The position numbers were made by a program, and so were the translations under genes. This document shows, piece by piece, positions 12,927 through 19,699 of a DNA stretch of 64,000 nt. The notes beneath the pieces were generated by a model. The model made no database searches. It saw nothing but the letters and a program-made list of their open reading frames with translations, and was not told the origin of the DNA. This DNA is from Prosthecobacter sp. (lineage in GTDB: Bacteria > Verrucomicrobiota > Verrucomicrobiia > Verrucomicrobiales > Verrucomicrobiaceae). Position 1 is the stretch's first letter. Each line of letters starts with the position of its first letter. The DNA lies in NCBI RefSeq assembly GCF_034366625.1, contig NZ_JAXMIH010000006.1:1-64000 (forward strand), in the 5' to 3' direction.

Positions 12927-15692
12927 TCAAGCGTTGAAGGCGGCCTCGACCAGGTTTTCCTGTTCGAGCGTGTGGATGGCCTTTGATCCGGCGGCGGGGC
13001 TGGAACTGCGCTCGCGGCCAGCGTAGCGGAGCTTGTGGTTGGAGAGCTCTTCGAGGCGCGGGCGGATGTAGTAGTGGGCGCCCATGTTGCGCGGCTCCTC
13101 CTGGCACCAGATCCATTTTTTCTGCGCACGCGGATACTTGGCGACGATCTCCTTCAGCATCTCGTAGTTCAGCGGGTAAAGCTGCTCGATGCGGATGATG
13201 GCGGCGTTCTTGATCTTGTTCTCGGCGCGGAATTCAAGCAGATCATAATAGACCTTGCCGCTGCACAGGATCAGGCGCGTGATGCGTTCCGGCGGGGCGA
13301 GGAGCTGGTCGTCATCGAGCACTTCCTTGAAGGTGGTGCCTTCGGCCATGTCGCTGAGCTTGGAGACGCACTTCGGATGGCGCAGCAGGCTTTTGGGCGT
13401 CATGACGACGAGCGGCTTGCGCGTGCTGCGCTTGAGCTGGCGGCGCAGCGCATGGAAATACTGCGCGGGCGTGGTGAAATTGCAGACCTGCATGTTACCG
13501 CCGGCGCAGAGCTGCAGGAAGCGTTCCAGCCGCGCGCTGGAGTGCTCGGGGCCCTGGCCTTCGTAACCGTGCGGCAGCAGAAGCGTCAGGTGACAGGGGC
13601 GCTGCCATTTGCTTTCGGCGCTGGCGATGAACTGGTCGATGATGACCTGCGCTCCGTTCACGAAGTCGCCGAACTGCGCTTCCCAGCAGACGAGCAGATT
13701 GCTGGTGAGCAGCGAGTAGCCGTAATCAAAACCGAGCACGGCGGCCTCGGACAGAAGACTGTTGTACACGCAGTAGCGGCCTTGCTCGGCGGCCAGGTTG
13801 TTCAGCGGGATATGGCGCTCACGTGTCTGCGAATCATAAAACACGCTGTGGCGCTGGCTGAAGGTGCCGCGTCGCACGTCCTGGCCGCTGAGGCGGACGC
13901 CATGGCCTTCGGTGAGAAGCGTGCCAAAGGCCAGGGACTCGGCATAGGCCCAGTCGATTCCTTCTCCAGCCTCCAATGCTTTCTTGCGGGCAGCGAGGAA
14001 GCGTTTGGCGATGGTGGGATGCAGATTGAAGCCCTCCGGCACTTCCAGAAGACGCTCGCCCACTTTTTTCAGGTCCTTGAGTTCGACGCCGGTCTTCACC
14101 GGATGGTAGTCATATGCCGCCTGCGGCATCGCCATGCTGCCTTCAAATGGATTGCCGCCATCGGCGTGCTTGTCACGATCAGCGAGCGTGGTGATGCCCT
14201 GTTCGAGTTCGTCTTCCAGCTCGCGCTGCAGCGCGGCGGAACCGGCTTCGTCAAGCACACCCGCCGAAGCGAGGTCGAGACGGAACAAGGTCGCGGTGGA
14301 AGGATGCTCGGCGATGGAGCGGGCCATGTTCGGCTGGGTGAAGCCGGGCTCGTCCGTCTCGTTGTGGCCATGTCGGCGGTAGCACACGATGTCGAGGATC
14401 ACATCCAGGCCAAAGGTCTGGCGGAATTCGAGCGCGAGCTTCGTCGCATGCACGACTTCCATCGGGCAGTCGCCATTCACATGGAGCACAGGCGCCTCGA
14501 TCATCTTCGCCACGTCGGTGCAGTAATGCGAGCTGCGGGCGTCCTCCGGCATCGTGGTGAAGCCGATCTGGTTGTTCACGATGACGTGGATCGTGCCGCC
14601 GGTCTGGTAGCCGGGGAGCTGCGAGAGATTGAGCACTTCCGCCACGAGACCCTGGCCGGCGAAGGCCGCGTCACCGTGGATGAGCACGGGGATGACTTTT
14701 TTGCGGTCCTTCGTGTCGCCCAGCGCGCGCTGGCGGGCACGGGCCATGCCTTCGACGACGGGATCCACCGCTTCCAGATGGCTCGGGTTCGGCGCGAGCA
14801 TCACGCCGATGGAATCTCCGCCGCTGGTCTGGCGCACGGTTTCAAAGCCCAGGTGATACTTCACGTCACCATCGCCACTGACCATGTTCGGCACATAGTT
14901 TTCGCTGAACTCGTAAAAGAGATACTCCAGCGGTTTGCGCAGGAAATTCGCCAGCACGCTGAGACGGCCGCGGTGCGCCATGCCGAGGATGATTTCCTTG
15001 CCGCCGTAGGCCGGCATGCCTTCGAGAATGGTCTCCAGCGCCACGAGCATCGACTCCCCACCTTCCACCGAGAAACGCTTCTGCCCGACGAAGCGGCGGT
15101 GCAGGAAGCGCTCAAAGGTCTCCGCCTCCAGCAGCCAGCGCAGCGCGTCGATCTGCGCCTTTGCCTCCGGTTTGGCGTCCAGATCGCGGCCTTCGATGCG
15201 CTCCAGCAGCCAGGTGCGCACCTCCGGGTTGTGGATGTGCATGAACTCGAAGCCCGTGCGTCCGCAATAAATGCGCTGCAGGTCCGCCAGCATCGTCTTG
15301 AGCTTCATCGGCTGCCCGCCGCGGAACAGATGCGTCTGCACATCCTCTTCGAGCTCGTCCGCCGTGAAGCCGAGGCCCGCCAGCGTGAGCGAGGGAATCT
15401 CCGGCCCTTCCTTGTCCAGCGGGTCGAGATGCGCGGCCGTGTGGCCGAGTTCGCGGAAGGCATACAGCGCGTTCGACACACGCATGCGGAAGTTCAGCGT
15501 CTTCTCGGAGAGCGGTGTGCCTGCCCCGGCGGCCGACTCCGCGCCTTTCGTGGCCAGACGGGCCATGCCCAGTTCAAAACCTTCAAAAAACGATGACCAC
15601 AGCGGTTCGACGGAACCAGGGTCTTTTTTCCAGTCCACATACTTGGACTCAAGGAAATCCGCATTGGCGCGGTACGGCAAAGTGGCACTCAT
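12927..15692 (-). CDS. sucA: 2-oxoglutarate dehydrogenase E1 component
   Basis: This 921-residue thiamine-diphosphate enzyme decarboxylates 2-oxoglutarate. The N-terminal segment [15 protein letters not shown] matches the flexible E1o arm that binds partner subunits. The thiamine/Mg motif region GDAAFAGQG and NNQIGFTT lies near 335-370, and the C-terminal transketolase-like domain ends with [12 protein letters not shown]. Length is typical. The start MSATLPYRA at 15692 is preferred over upstream codons, which add an Arg-rich leader of the wrong composition. It is first in the sucAB operon. Directly upstream, 149 bp from the start, begins a 19-copy 21-bp tandem array. The E3 gene is not in the window. 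Confidence 0.96.
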
Positions 15693-15840
15693 GATAGGGG
15701 GCGTGGAGAATGCGCCCTTTCGTTCCGAGTGCAAATGCGGAAAGGCAGGATTTGCCGCTCTTTTCGTGGGTAAACCGCCATCCCCAACAACGGCGCGTTT
15801 GCGGGCAACGCACCCCGCCTGCCTCACGCTCCCGCCAGCT

Positions 15841-16239
15841 CGGAAACGCTCCATCCCAACTCGGAGAAGCTCGATACGAACTCAAAAAAACCTTTTCCGA
15901 GCCGGAAAACGCTCAATCCGAGTTCGGAAATGCCCGGCCCGGGCGCGGAACAGGTCGGCCACCGTTCGGAAACATGCAGACCGAGTCCGGTGACGTTCGA
16001 CCCCGATTCGGAAAAGGTCGGCTACCGTTGGGAAAGACTCGATCCGCGATCGGAAATGCCCAACCCGAGTCCGGGGAAACTCGACCCCGATTCGGTCCTG
16101 CATGATCCGAGTCAGGAAAAGTTCAGCCGCCGTTGGGAAAGCCTCGATCCGAGTCCGGGGAAGCTCAACCCGAGTTCGGAAACGCTCAATCCGCGCTCGG
16201 AAAAGCCTTTCCCGAGTCGGGAAAAGCTCAACCCGAGGA
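15841..16239. repeat. 19-copy tandem array with 21-bp period
   Basis: Nineteen consecutive units of 21 bp (399 bp) keep phase to the base; one 20/22 pair around 15883-15924 self-corrects. Units typically start CGGAAA or GGGAAA and end CCGAGT or CCGATT; a weaker decayed unit follows at 16240. Because 21 is a multiple of three, several frames on both strands stay open and would encode seven-residue repeats (for example forward heptads around FGNA or EKLNPS). No frame has a convincing start and end, so coding is uncertain. The array lies upstream of sucA (minus strand) and ends before the ORFan island. It could be a decayed heptad gene, a protein-binding array or a recombination substrate. Confidence 0.9.
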
Positions 16240-16728
16240 GGGGTGTGGGGTTCAACGCTTTGATTTCCAATGGGTCATCGGATTTCTTTCCTGATTCCCT
16301 CCCCTTGGTTTACCACTCCTGGGGTTACTGCCACCAACTCCATGTTTGGCCGGACGAAATCGTGATTTGCCGCCACCCATTCGCGATTTGGCGGCACGCA
16401 AAGCCGGGATGACGGCTGTTGGGCCGGGATCGACTGATGGAAATCGGCTCCTGGACGAACCCATCCGCGCAGGACGAGCGAACCGGTGTCAGGGTGCGAA
16501 AGCGGGACGGGCATCCATTCTCTTTGGCATGGATGGCGGGCGTGGCGGGTCTTCAAGTCCCCATCCAACGTGCTTGCGACCCCATCTTGGTTTGGGCAGA
16601 ATGGCCGGAAACATGAGTGCTTTGCAGCCCCCAGCCATGCCGTCTTCCGAATCATGAGCACCGTGACCACTGTCAAGAATTTGCACCCGCCTTGACGGAT
16701 GCGCTGCGGAGCGGGATGATGGGTTGAA
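16240..16728. other. Noncoding stretch with hairpin, no convincing gene
   Basis: About 490 bp between the 21-bp array and the first ORFan. A perfect 8-bp inverted repeat, TGCCGCCA (16368-16375) and TGGCGGCA (16389-16396), could form a hairpin with a 13-base loop. The 18-mer GTCAAGAATTTGCACCCG lies at 16672-16689 and recurs at 18209. A 184-codon minus-strand frame spans most of the region but has odd composition and overlaps the next gene, so it was not called. Confidence 0.5.
16672..16689 (+). repeat. 18-bp dispersed repeat, copy 1
   Basis: GTCAAGAATTTGCACCCG is identical to 18209-18226. Copy 1 lies 39 bp before the 16729 gene; copy 2 lies 26 bp before the 18253 gene. It therefore marks the 5' side of two of the three ORFans. 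Confidence 0.85.
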
Positions 16729-17175
16729 ATGAGTTCCAGATGGAAAACTGCGGCGCGAATCCTGGTGGCGTTTTTGTTACTCATGGGCACGTGGTGGCTG
16801 TGGGTGATGCGGGGGCATGAGGGCCGCACTTTGGGCCGCCTGATCGATGCCCGGGTGATTTCGCAGGCTCATCACTGCCGGCTGCTGTTTTCGACGGGGC
16901 ATTTCCGGGAGAACAGGCATGTTTTTGAGTGCGCGGCCGGAGACATCCTGGATGCTGACAAGGGAGGTGTGGCTTTTCATCCGGTTGACTTTGAGAATGA
17001 AAATCATGCCAGATTCTTTGCAGAGCGCATCCGCCCGCTGATGGACGGCTGCATTCAGCCGCCGGTGGACTGGAAGAATGCCGTGGTCTGCAATGGCGAA
17101 GGCAAGGGCCTGCTGACTGAAGTGTTCACGGTGAAGGCCGGAAGCCGATGCTTTGTGGTGCTGGATGTGTTTTAG
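16729..17175 (+). CDS. Hypothetical membrane-anchored protein (ORFan 1)
   Basis: This 148-residue protein has an N-terminal hydrophobic anchor (ARILVAFLLLMGTWWLWVM, about 9-27), then a soluble domain with four Cys (near 50, 68, 108 and 119) that could form disulfides outside the membrane. No family was recognised. The upstream region lacks a strong ribosome-binding site. It opens a set of three unrelated small genes on the plus strand between sucA and accD, each next to repeats; a 116-bp repeat begins 10 bp after its stop. Confidence 0.55.
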   Translation: MSSRWKTAARILVAFLLLMGTWWLWVMRGHEGRTLGRLIDARVISQAHHCRLLFSTGHFRENRHVFECAAGDILDADKGGVAFHPVDFENENHARFFAERIRPLMDGCIQPPVDWKNAVVCNGEGKGLLTEVFTVKAGSRCFVVLDVF

Positions 17176-17185
17176 AAAAGGAAAT

Positions 17186-17301
17186 GGGAAAACGGGGTCG
17201 GTGTGCAACTGGCTGACAAACCAAATCGAGAAGAACGCAAGCGGCCGGGTTCCCCATGGGAGGCGGGGCCGAATGATCTGAGATCATCCGCAGCGGCGTG
17301 C
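17186..17301 (+). repeat. 116-bp dispersed repeat, copy A
   Basis: Copy A aligns without gaps to 18715-18830, with 102 of 116 bases identical by my manual count. It begins with GGGAAAACGGGGTCGG and contains a near-perfect palindrome, TGATCTGAGATCA. It starts 10 bp after the stop of the 16729 gene. Confidence 0.88.
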
Positions 17302-17394
17302 GCCCTCTTTTTTCTTGTATCAACAGCGGTTTTTTGCCACAAACACACTTCACCCAGGCCCGTTTCACCCCGTTTCCTTGAGTGGAGGCTTGCG

Positions 17395-18048
17395 ATGTTC
17401 TTGAAACACACATATTCTCTTTTATTGCTGCTCATTTTTTCGGGCACCGCTAATGAATGCATTGCGGAGAATGAAAAACGCATTGTGGTAATGTCTCCAC
17501 ACCGGCGAGTACTACCACATACCTCGCTCGCTGATTTGTCCGCAAAGCTGGATGCCGATTCCGTCTATTCACTACAAGTCGTTGCACTCACATTGCCCAT
17601 TGGAAGCGATTGGGTAGTGCTTCAAGGGTTGCCGTTCAGGAAACTCAACGAACTATTCCTCTGGATTTCATGTGAAGAGGTCAAAGCTGGTGCTTTGAGC
17701 TCCCTAGCCCACCTGCCTCTTGCCACGCTCTCAATTTTTGCCAACACATCTGGAGCGACAATCGACGTTTTGCCAATCATGGGATTAGCCGAGCGATTGG
17801 AGATAGGTGATCCAGATGCTTTTTTCGGGAGGAAGCGCGAAATTGATATGGCGAAAATACATCTAAAGTTTCCCACGCTAAATACGCTTGGGTTGCCGAA
17901 GGAGTGGATCGACGCACATCCTCAGCAAGTCATCGTGCTCAAGGCTAGCTTCATTATTGTGAATGTTGACATTGGTGCAAAAATGAAATCAGCAATCGAG
18001 TTGCTCGAAAAAAACGGAGCAGATCTATTCATTCAAACTGAAAAATGA
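17395..18048 (+). CDS. Hypothetical secreted protein, LRR-like spacing (ORFan 2)
   Basis: This 217-residue protein has a signal peptide (LLLLLIFSGTA, cut near residue 22). A GGAGG ribosome site lies 7 bases before the ATG, which supports this start over an upstream one inside the repeat. The mature part has spaced leucine segments (FRKLNELFLWIS, LAHLPLATLSIFA, GLAERLEIGD, FPTLNTLGLP) resembling irregular leucine-rich repeats, so a protein-interaction role is possible. Base composition is clearly more AT-rich than neighbours, suggesting acquisition. The last two codons and stop (GAA AAA TGA) belong to a repeat shared with ORFan 3. Confidence 0.65.
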   Translation: MFLKHTYSLLLLLIFSGTANECIAENEKRIVVMSPHRRVLPHTSLADLSAKLDADSVYSLQVVALTLPIGSDWVVLQGLPFRKLNELFLWISCEEVKAGALSSLAHLPLATLSIFANTSGATIDVLPIMGLAERLEIGDPDAFFGRKREIDMAKIHLKFPTLNTLGLPKEWIDAHPQQVIVLKASFIIVNVDIGAKMKSAIELLEKNGADLFIQTEK

Positions 18049-18133
18049 ACCCGTACGCCAACCAATAGCGGGAAGCGGCAGATGTCACCGGATGCCAACC
18101 AATGGCAGATGAACCCACGAGCCAACCAATAGC
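18042..18133 (+). repeat. GCCAACCAAT repeat cluster
   Basis: GCCAACCAATAGC occurs at 18057-18069 and 18121-18133, and GCCAACCAATGGC at 18094-18106; each is preceded by ATGAACCC or a close variant. A related GCCACCAATAGGG lies at 18705 after the next gene. The first copy starts inside the stop region of the 17395 gene, and the 204-bp gap to the next gene holds nothing else recognisable. Confidence 0.8.
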
Positions 18134-18208
18134 GCGGGACGTGCCAGCCAATTTGGGAAAATGAAGTTATGACCGCCGCTTCGTCTGAGCTATGAACATC
18201 AACCCACC

Positions 18209-18226
18209 GTCAAGAATTTGCACCCG
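18209..18226 (+). repeat. 18-bp dispersed repeat, copy 2
   Basis: Identical to 16672-16689. It runs directly into the left 14-bp inverted repeat at 18227. Confidence 0.85.
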
Positions 18227-18728
18227 GACCCCGTTTCCCCTCTGAAATAGCTATGAAGACGTCACTTGTATTGGCCGGCATTGCAATGTGTTCTCTATTT
18301 GTCGACTGTGGGCGTCGGGGAAGTGGAAGCACGGTTCGGAAGGCCTCGGCCTTGGATAATGTGAGAATCGCCCTCTTACGAGAGGTGAACGAACATATTT
18401 TGAGCAAAGGTATCGAAGAAAAAGTGCCAGTAGATAAAGCAGTTTATGAGCTGGTAGCGCACCACCAAGAAAGGGTCGGATTTTGGGTTTCTATTCAAGG
18501 GCCAAAAAATCGAGTATGGATCGTAGAAGACGAGAAGGCAGCGTTGTTGTCTGATCCACAAGATATATATTATAAAAGAATACTTGGTGTTAAAAAAGAT
18601 GGTGCTGTAGTTGCGACTGACGCTGGGCTCTTAAAAAGAGAGTTTCCATTTGATGGTGCCAAACACTTTTTCATCGAACCAAAAAATGAAAAATGAACCC
18701 GCGCGCCACCAATAGGGGAAACGGGGTC
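18227..18728. repeat. 502-bp unit bounded by 14-bp inverted repeats
   Basis: GACCCCGTTTCCCC (18227-18240) and its exact reverse complement (18715-18728) tightly bracket one gene: the left arm ends 12 bp before its ATG, and the right arm starts 18 bp after its stop. The right arm is also the first 14 bases of 116-bp repeat copy B. No flanking target duplication was recognised. Confidence 0.7.
18253..18696 (+). CDS. Hypothetical lipoprotein or secreted protein (ORFan 3)
   Basis: This 147-residue protein has a short signal (SLVLAGIAMCSLFVDC); Cys at position 19 could be lipidated, although the lipobox is atypical. The remainder is AT-rich in codon choice and has a small alpha/beta pattern without a recognised family. 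It lies between 14-bp inverted repeats and ends with GAA AAA TGA inside a repeat shared with ORFan 2. The next gene, accD, is on the opposite strand. Confidence 0.6.
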   Translation: MKTSLVLAGIAMCSLFVDCGRRGSGSTVRKASALDNVRIALLREVNEHILSKGIEEKVPVDKAVYELVAHHQERVGFWVSIQGPKNRVWIVEDEKAALLSDPQDIYYKRILGVKKDGAVVATDAGLLKREFPFDGAKHFFIEPKNEK

Positions 18729-18830
18729 GGGCTGCAACTGGCTGACAACCCAAATCGCGAAGAACACAAGCAGCCGGGTTGAGCATTGGAGGCGTGGCCG
18801 AATGACCTGAGATCATCCGCAGCGGCATGC
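18715..18830 (+). repeat. 116-bp dispersed repeat, copy B
   Basis: Ungapped partner of 17186-17301, same orientation, starting 18 bp after the ORFan 3 stop. The palindrome is imperfect here (TGACCTGAGATCA). Its 3' end stops 24 bp short of the accD stop codon region. Confidence 0.88.
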
Positions 18831-18853
18831 AGGCTCGGTTGATCCCGAAGCCG

Positions 18854-19699
18854 TCAGGCACTTGCCTTCACTCCGGCCAGGTAGCGCAGCACCTTCGCCA
18901 GCGTGGGGCGCATGTCCTTGCGGTCCACGATCATATCGACGAGGCCGTGCTGCATCATGAACTCGGCGGTCTGGAAGCCGGGAGGGAGGTCGGCATGGGT
19001 GGTTTCCTTCACCACACGCGGTCCGGCGAAGCCGATCATGCACTTCGGCTCGGCGATGATGATGTCGCCGAGGGTGGCGAAGCTGGCGGTGACGCCGCCG
19101 GTGGTCGGGTGCGTGAGCACGGAGATGTAGGGCAGGCGGGCTTCCGAGTGGCGGGCGAGGGCACCGCTGGTCTTGGCCATCTGCATGAGGCTGAGGATGC
19201 CCTCGTGCATGCGGGCGCCGCCGGAGGCGGAGAAGACGATGACCGGCTTGCGCTCGGCGGTGGCGGCCTCGATGGCGCGGGTGATTTTTTCCCCCACGAC
19301 GCTGCCCATGCTGGCACCGAGGAAGCGGAAGTCCATGATGGCGACCAGGACGGCGATGCCCTCGATGGTGGCGTGGCCGGTGACGACGGCCTCGGTGAGC
19401 CCGGTCTTGGCCTGGTAGGCCTTCACCTTGTCGAGGTAGCCTTTGAAGCCGAGGGCGTTCACAGAATCGAGATGCTTGTCCATCTCGACGAAGCTGCCCT
19501 CGTCCACCAGGCTGGCGATGCGCTCGTCGGAGCCGATGGTGAAATGATAGCCGCAGTTCGTGCAGACGCGGAGGTTTTTGGAGAGCGCCTGCTCAAACAG
19601 GCTTTCGTTGCACGAGGGGCACTTCGTCCAGAGGCCTTCCGGCATGTCGCGTTTCTTCTCGCCTAAATCGTCAACAGAGCGTTTTTTGAAAAATCCCAT
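18854..19699 (-). CDS. accD: Acetyl-CoA carboxylase, carboxyltransferase beta subunit
   Basis: This 281-residue AccD pairs with AccA to carboxylate acetyl-CoA for fatty acid synthesis. The N-terminal zinc ribbon has CPSC (about 28-31) and CTNCG (about 46-50). The carboxyltransferase core contains FSASGGARMHEG and HPTTGGVTASFA. Length is typical. accA and folC are not adjacent. Downstream lies the ORFan island; upstream, 143 bp away, is the comF-like gene on the same strand. Confidence 0.96.
   Translation of the reverse strand: MGFFKKRSVDDLGEKKRDMPEGLWTKCPSCNESLFEQALSKNLRVCTNCGYHFTIGSDERIASLVDEGSFVEMDKHLDSVNALGFKGYLDKVKAYQAKTGLTEAVVTGHATIEGIAVLVAIMDFRFLGASMGSVVGEKITRAIEAATAERKPVIVFSASGGARMHEGILSLMQMAKTSGALARHSEARLPYISVLTHPTTGGVTASFATLGDIIIAEPKCMIGFAGPRVVKETTHADLPPGFQTAEFMMQHGLVDMIVDRKDMRPTLAKVLRYLAGVKASA

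Follow-up and report, generated by a model that had tools for sequence, protein, structure and literature searches.

Probable ends of a Y1 transposase element beside three small genes in the sucA–accD spacer of a Prosthecobacter genome

The stretch of DNA analysed here (the window; 64,000 nucleotides of Prosthecobacter sp., contig NZ_JAXMIH010000006.1, positions 1 to 64,000) carries between sucA and accD three small open reading frames (ORFs), which show no sequence likeness to one another as far as seen and are each followed by a repeat. ORF1 and ORF3 are both preceded by the same 18-mer (at 16672 and 18209) and followed, after 10 bp and 18 bp respectively, by copies of a 116-bp element (17186–17301 and 18715–18830). 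The initial annotation had described these repeats correctly and likened their layout to a gene-cassette array. Our data point elsewhere: with a probability of about 0.75, both repeats are copies of one terminal inverted repeat (TIR), the 18-mer in right-end and the 116-bp element in left-end orientation, and this TIR belongs to a Y1 (HUH) tyrosine transposase element of the kind known as TIRtrons or from repetitive extragenic palindrome (REP)-associated tyrosine transposases (RAYTs); the copies would have landed by separate small genes which they do not carry. The repeats would then mark both ends of such an element, not a site brought along by each gene; a cassette array is unsupported, and the arrangement resembles clutter at a busy spot more than it does a new cassette machine. 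What was a puzzling cassette array without an integrase becomes a recognisable pattern, in which the ends of a Y1 transposase element are scattered at a gene-turnover spot. The spacer is hypervariable, and the TIR family is a new one, although its kind is known.

The 18-mer is contained in a pair of 23-nt repeats that a repeat search of the window placed at 16667–16689 and 18204–18226 (96% identical), and the two 116-bp copies are 88% identical without gaps. A single motif, GTCA-n5-TTGCA-n3-TGACCCCGTTT, also written GTCA-n5-TTGCA-n3-TGACCCCGTTTCCC, underlies both the 18-mer and, in the opposite orientation, the first 32 bp of the 116-bp element. An inverted-repeat search paired 18209–18241, within the second right end (RE2), with 18714–18746 in the second left end (LE2), the two being 82% complementary over 33 bp, and paired 17186–17217 (LE1) with 18209–18240 of RE2 at 78% over 32 bp. 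From sucA to accD the order is a truncated right end (RE1), ORF1, LE1 with its A2 tail, ORF2, a repeat that we call B, RE2, ORF3, B again, and LE2 with A2 (Table 1).

The same motif frames a transposase gene elsewhere in this genome (G000; G, C and L handles denote genomes, contigs and loci). At C23:223268 (L041), two inverted exact motif copies enclose a gene of 351 codons (351 amino acids, aa), the whole measuring 1164 bp; the left end reads GAAACGGGGTCAGTGTGCAA-n5-TGACAAA and the right end TGTCA-n5-TTGCACCCTGACCCCGTTTCC. The encoded protein matches Pfam Y1_Tnp with 45.2 bits (cut-off 23) and has a visible HYH stretch; it reaches 62.1 bits with the NCBIfam RAYT equivalog REP_Tyr_transpos (NF047646), below the cut-off of 80, and for a possible C-terminal helix-turn-helix (HTH) there is a weak match, LexA_DNA_bind at 13.5 bits, under the cut-off of 23.7. 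Y1_Tnp matches number 11 in the genome, and L041 is the only one with the motif in its fetched locus. Since the transposase gene sits between LE and RE, only ORF2 is placed like cargo, and ORF1 and ORF3 lie outside.

Pairs in the LE-to-RE order of L041 recur. In 43 fetched loci we found 18 such pairs, eight of which span 1137–1165 bp with a transposase (L041 and seven in relatives, with the L212 and L223 matches each split in two), while two hold transposase remnants, five are doublets of 89–90 bp and three are others, including that of the window. The one doublet that was folded (C20:9310–9399, own genome) forms one long hairpin (z = -6.2). When the survey covered 159 loci, including 80 of the 116 stretches retrieved by a degenerate-pattern scan of a genome contig collection, 26 distinct pairs were present, 13 of them with transposase sequence; ten of the other 13 are at most 120 bp long and one is below 250 bp, and of the last two just one, in the window, contains an ORF of at least 70 aa.

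The genome-wide recurrence considered in the initial annotation holds for the whole motif, with 20 sites at up to three mismatches versus 2 in the control, but not for the 18-mer's exact 16-mer core, of which the genome holds only the two window copies. With up to two mismatches the core gave 8 sites versus 4 in the control, and GGTGTGCAACTGGCTGAC with up to three gave 19 versus 6. Across the genus, the whole motif with up to two mismatches occurs in 36 of 48 genomes, our own included; the reversed control gave one hit altogether. Matches to the 116-bp element were present in 12 of 37 genomes (12/24 within the genus, 0/13 outside), many of them spanning the TIR part alone. The titles of these 80 of the 116 stretches from the degenerate-pattern scan name Verrucomicrobia(ceae), Prosthecobacter, Brevifollis gellanilyticus and one metagenome-assembled genome labelled Akkermansia. 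Among the titles and abstract openings listed from the open-licence literature, we found no description of such a TIR family in Prosthecobacter or Verrucomicrobiaceae. These data add a TIR family present in 36/48 genomes of a Verrucomicrobiaceae genus.

As far as the accessible parts of the literature go, the closest published kind is the TIRtron, a TIR-flanked element of this sort whose enzyme is termed TIRYT; some TIRs share GGGGWSAS, and many occur in dimers or clusters (Di Nocera 2013, PMC3733652). Of 26 described TIRYTs, 20 are assigned to TnpA-Y1 subclass 2.1, which has a C-terminal HTH and probably corresponds to TIRYT (PMC6006769). L041 fits this kind in the features tested except for its weak HTH. 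Like TIRtrons, L041 and seven elements in relatives place a Y1 tyrosine transposase gene between inverted repeats, both L041 ends carry GGGGTCAG, which fits GGGGWSAS, and TIR copies are dispersed as singlets, dimers and groups. Unlike them, the window copies, which read GGGGTCGG or GGGGTCCG, are one base off GGGGWSAS, some copies bear the A2 tail, and the HTH is weakly supported. The elements also resemble REPINs, the inverted doublets of short repeats associated with a Y1 transposase (PMC3116915), of which the folded doublet is reminiscent in its long hairpin. Two differences from the published account of REPINs and RAYTs are that the roughly 20 sites here are far below the number of REPs reported in P. 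fluorescens SBW25, and that the elements found here enclose the transposase gene itself between their ends.

In the mechanism that we propose, the transposase would act in trans on hairpin-forming ends, which it would nick, copy or move, and doublets and single ends could thereby accumulate between genes, here in the hypervariable sucA–accD spacer. ORF1, ORF2 and ORF3 would be separate small genes, two of them AT-rich, gained or kept in that spacer, and the repeats would have landed beside or between them without carrying them.

The spacer is indeed a hypervariable gene-turnover spot, because its contents vary among relatives. DNA beyond accD was fetched from 20 relatives and reached sucA in 13, whose spacers measure 104–3584 bp; those of G001 and G004 are about 105 bp long and lack everything, not just one unit. 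At least six other relatives have a GntR-aminotransferase-like gene in the spacer (by eye; that of G051 is confirmed), G042 has a gene for a PIN-domain protein and G039 a different Y1 transposase, and in G058, the nearest relative, a gene for a C5 DNA methylase precedes one for a DUF4928 protein (L135), perhaps a restriction-modification pair. None of the 20 fetched stretches contains ORF1–3 (tblastn, E 0.01). A TIR lies in the spacer of one of the 13 relatives, G060, where an LE-A2 element adjoins accD and is 75% identical over 116 bp to that of the window; the element adjoining accD therefore either predates the ORFs or is independent of them. A2 is a second repeat in its own right, TIR-fused in G000, G004 and G060 and TIR-free in G014, where it adjoins accD, and at L003 and L070 of our own genome.

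The three ORFs differ in what can be said of them. ORF1 is in all likelihood a genuine gene and belongs to a patchy small family with relatives in G058 (56% identity), G169 (43%), G116, G044 and G054, all at other loci. Over five aligned sequences 16 columns are invariant, and the AlphaFold model (mean predicted local distance difference test score, pLDDT, 85) combines a long N-terminal helix with a small alpha/beta domain. No Pfam family scored above its cut-off for this protein, NCBIfam gave no match, a fold search of the model against the PDB returned nothing at E 0.001 or below, and four further sequence matches at E 0.002–0.009 were left unused. ORF2 and ORF3 are without convincing relatives. 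Both have signal-like N-termini by eye and a low GC content (0.46 and 0.43, window 0.60), and both terminate in repeat B, with the stop codon inside GAAAAATGAACCC. For ORF2 the 288 genomes searched gave a single weak match (E 0.009), plasmids and viral contigs gave none, and its single-sequence AlphaFold model (pLDDT 34) is too poor for use. ORF3 found no match in phages; its weak matches (E 0.001–0.009), within frames of 266–1167 codons, come from seven other genomes of the 288 and a second place in G000. Five of these eight (L168, L170, L171, L173, L175) span one stretch from residue 41 at about 36% and may form one distant family.

Several observations weigh against the view that the TIR ends do not carry the small genes, or against parts of it. 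By eye, the likeness between ORF1 and its G058 relative starts right after the truncated TIR and stops a few bases before LE1, limits that match the TIR borders as would be expected of a moved unit. GC content is 0.51 or lower in 7 of 11 RE-to-LE intervals of 250–2500 bp versus none of seven same-orientation intervals (Fisher p 0.013), although one of the latter depends on an end, at 16481, that is doubtful. Over 94 single TIRs, GC is 0.562 on the outer (GTTTCCC) side versus 0.590 on the inner (Wilcoxon p 0.0015), with values below 0.5 on 16 outer versus 5 inner sides. These neighbour statistics are exploratory, having been designed after the data were seen and left uncorrected, with overlapping locus sources de-duplicated by identical sequence only. 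Among four folded single TIR pieces of the window, only the short RE1 piece beat its shuffles (z -2.7; others 0.4, 0.2 and 2.0). A derivation of singlets from doublets by decay is unsupported: among 112 singlets, opposite TIRs located some 61 bp inward are not in excess (9 at offsets 56–66, compared with 11, 5 and 5 for three further ranges of offset).

Some of these observations are what an alternative would predict in which the TIRs bound gene units, the transposase moving small genes between TIR ends in trans, by one-ended or inside-out events, as RE-ORF1-LE, RE-ORF3-LE or LE-ORF2-RE. We consider it unlikely. Besides the coinciding limits of the ORF1 unit and the outer-side AT bias, it can draw on the interval from LE at 17190 to RE at 18236, which with its 1047 bp around ORF2 has the geometry and almost the length of the transposase element. 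It can also draw on the seven AT-rich RE-to-LE intervals: five of them hold one small ORF, namely that of window ORF3 and those of L199 (89 aa), L202 (140 aa), L209 (207 aa) and L229 (255 aa) in relatives, the remaining two having a 175-aa frame that overlaps the end and no frame of 70 aa. The five relatives of ORF1 speak against it, as no TIR was found in their fetched flanks of up to 1.5 kb (L156–L160; up to five substitutions). Part of the RE-to-LE pattern is moreover trivial, because wherever two whole elements adjoin, an RE-to-LE interval arises with no capture involved, and among LE-to-RE pairs of at least 250 bp, ORF2 is the only non-transposase content of 70 aa or more. The doublets (14 sites) show no AT bias on their outer side. 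While the comparison with relatives that the annotation had called for confirmed that genes come and go at this place, it revealed no empty site for an RE-ORF-LE unit.

A related proposal, in our judgement quite unlikely, makes single TIRs mobile borders, whereby the enzyme would move small AT-rich, often secreted-looking genes on their outer side by one-ended or inside-out transposition, and RE-gene-LE arrangements would be integrase-free cassettes, two of them in this spacer. In an equally exploratory count with a simple gene caller, AT-rich neighbour genes lie on 20 of 80 outer versus 9 of 79 inner sides (p 0.039); gene starts/stops facing the outer side number 32/48 and those facing the inner side 34/45. 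The 37 transposase-adjacent TIRs give the same sign, but their inner side is the transposase gene. For 15 chosen single TIRs, a weight-matrix search of the DNA on the outer side placed a partner end (score above 5) beside six, all previously seen, against a null in which 95% of shuffled stretches scored below -15. A candidate left end at 16609, beside RE1, was rejected as chance-level (11/20 positions, null 0.11). The weak outer-side AT bias of single TIRs, if it holds, would be a lead on how small orphan genes move.

Homologous recombination between direct repeats, duplicating, swapping or deleting the genes between them, is a very unlikely origin of the arrangement. The spacer does hold two direct repeat pairs of near-equal spacing (1529 bp for the 116-bp elements, 1537 bp for the 18-mers), but ORF1 and ORF3 are unalike by eye, so that no duplicated gene is visible; the 20 relatives' stretches without ORF1–3 are neutral on this point. 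The RE-to-LE distances, which also speak for recombination, are near-equal as well, at 519 bp (16667–17217) and 511 bp (18204–18746), and enclose unalike ORFs of 148 and 147 aa, perhaps a coincidence.

An integron-type cassette array or its remnant is extremely improbable and is rejected for our own genome by its integrase score (best 78.7 bits versus a cut-off of 265; assembly 96.67% complete) and for the window by the lack of any attC-like site, although the home-made finder used is insensitive, recovering 3 sites in a G043 stretch with about nine repeats. The absence of an integrase and of attC from the initial annotation's picture was borne out within those limits. A series of small unrelated ORFs, each with a repeat behind it, does recall integron cassettes, and integron integrases score above cut-off in 14 of 48 genus genomes (not G000), with G043 (L240, from about 9.4 kb) showing an ORF array with repeats of about 111 bp beside an integrase and next to what by eye are atp genes; the repeats of the window, however, belong to the transposase element. 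A first attC finder using canonical cores gave almost nothing, even beside integrases. A relaxed one flagged the REPIN-like doublets L196 and L220 because GTGCAAC...GTTGCAC resembles attC core sites; we do not take them for attC, as many copies read TTTGCAC without the G of GTT. On one contig, G001:C86, integrase fragments and TIR elements occur together.

Table 1. Repeats and reading frames between sucA and accD, in window coordinates.
Feature	Position	Strand	Basis
RE1, truncated TIR copy in right-end orientation, without the TGACCCCGTTT half	16667..16689	+	repeat search, motif scan
ORF1, 148 aa	16729..17175	+	open reading frame, homologs
LE1, TIR in left-end orientation, core 17190-17217	17186..17221	-	repeat search, motif scan
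A2 repeat, tail of the 116-bp element, elsewhere also without TIR	17218..17301	.	repeat comparison
ORF2, 217 aa	17395..18048	+	open reading frame
Repeat B, units at 18045, 18082 and 18109, body to about 18200 by eye; contains ORF2 stop codon	18035..18200	.	
RE2, TIR in right-end orientation, core 18209-18236	18204..18241	+	repeat search, motif scan
ORF3, 147 aa	18253..18696	+	open reading frame
Short extra copy of repeat B; contains ORF3 stop codon	18683..18714	.	repeat families D4, D7
LE2 (core 18719-18746) with A2 tail	18715..18830	-	repeat search, motif scan

An Rfam scan of 15500–19000 gave no matches. Repeat B (ATGAACCC..GCCAACCAATAG..CGTGCCAGCC..) is a separate dispersed repeat, found at 18035–18200 of the window and at L004, L006, L008 and L074; the L074 copy directly adjoins a TIR at its outer end. 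Directly upstream of the sucA start, at 15837–16227, lies a degenerate array whose units are spaced by multiples of 21 bp; its 11 in-register copies are 62–82% like the reference, and more than one reading frame is open through it.

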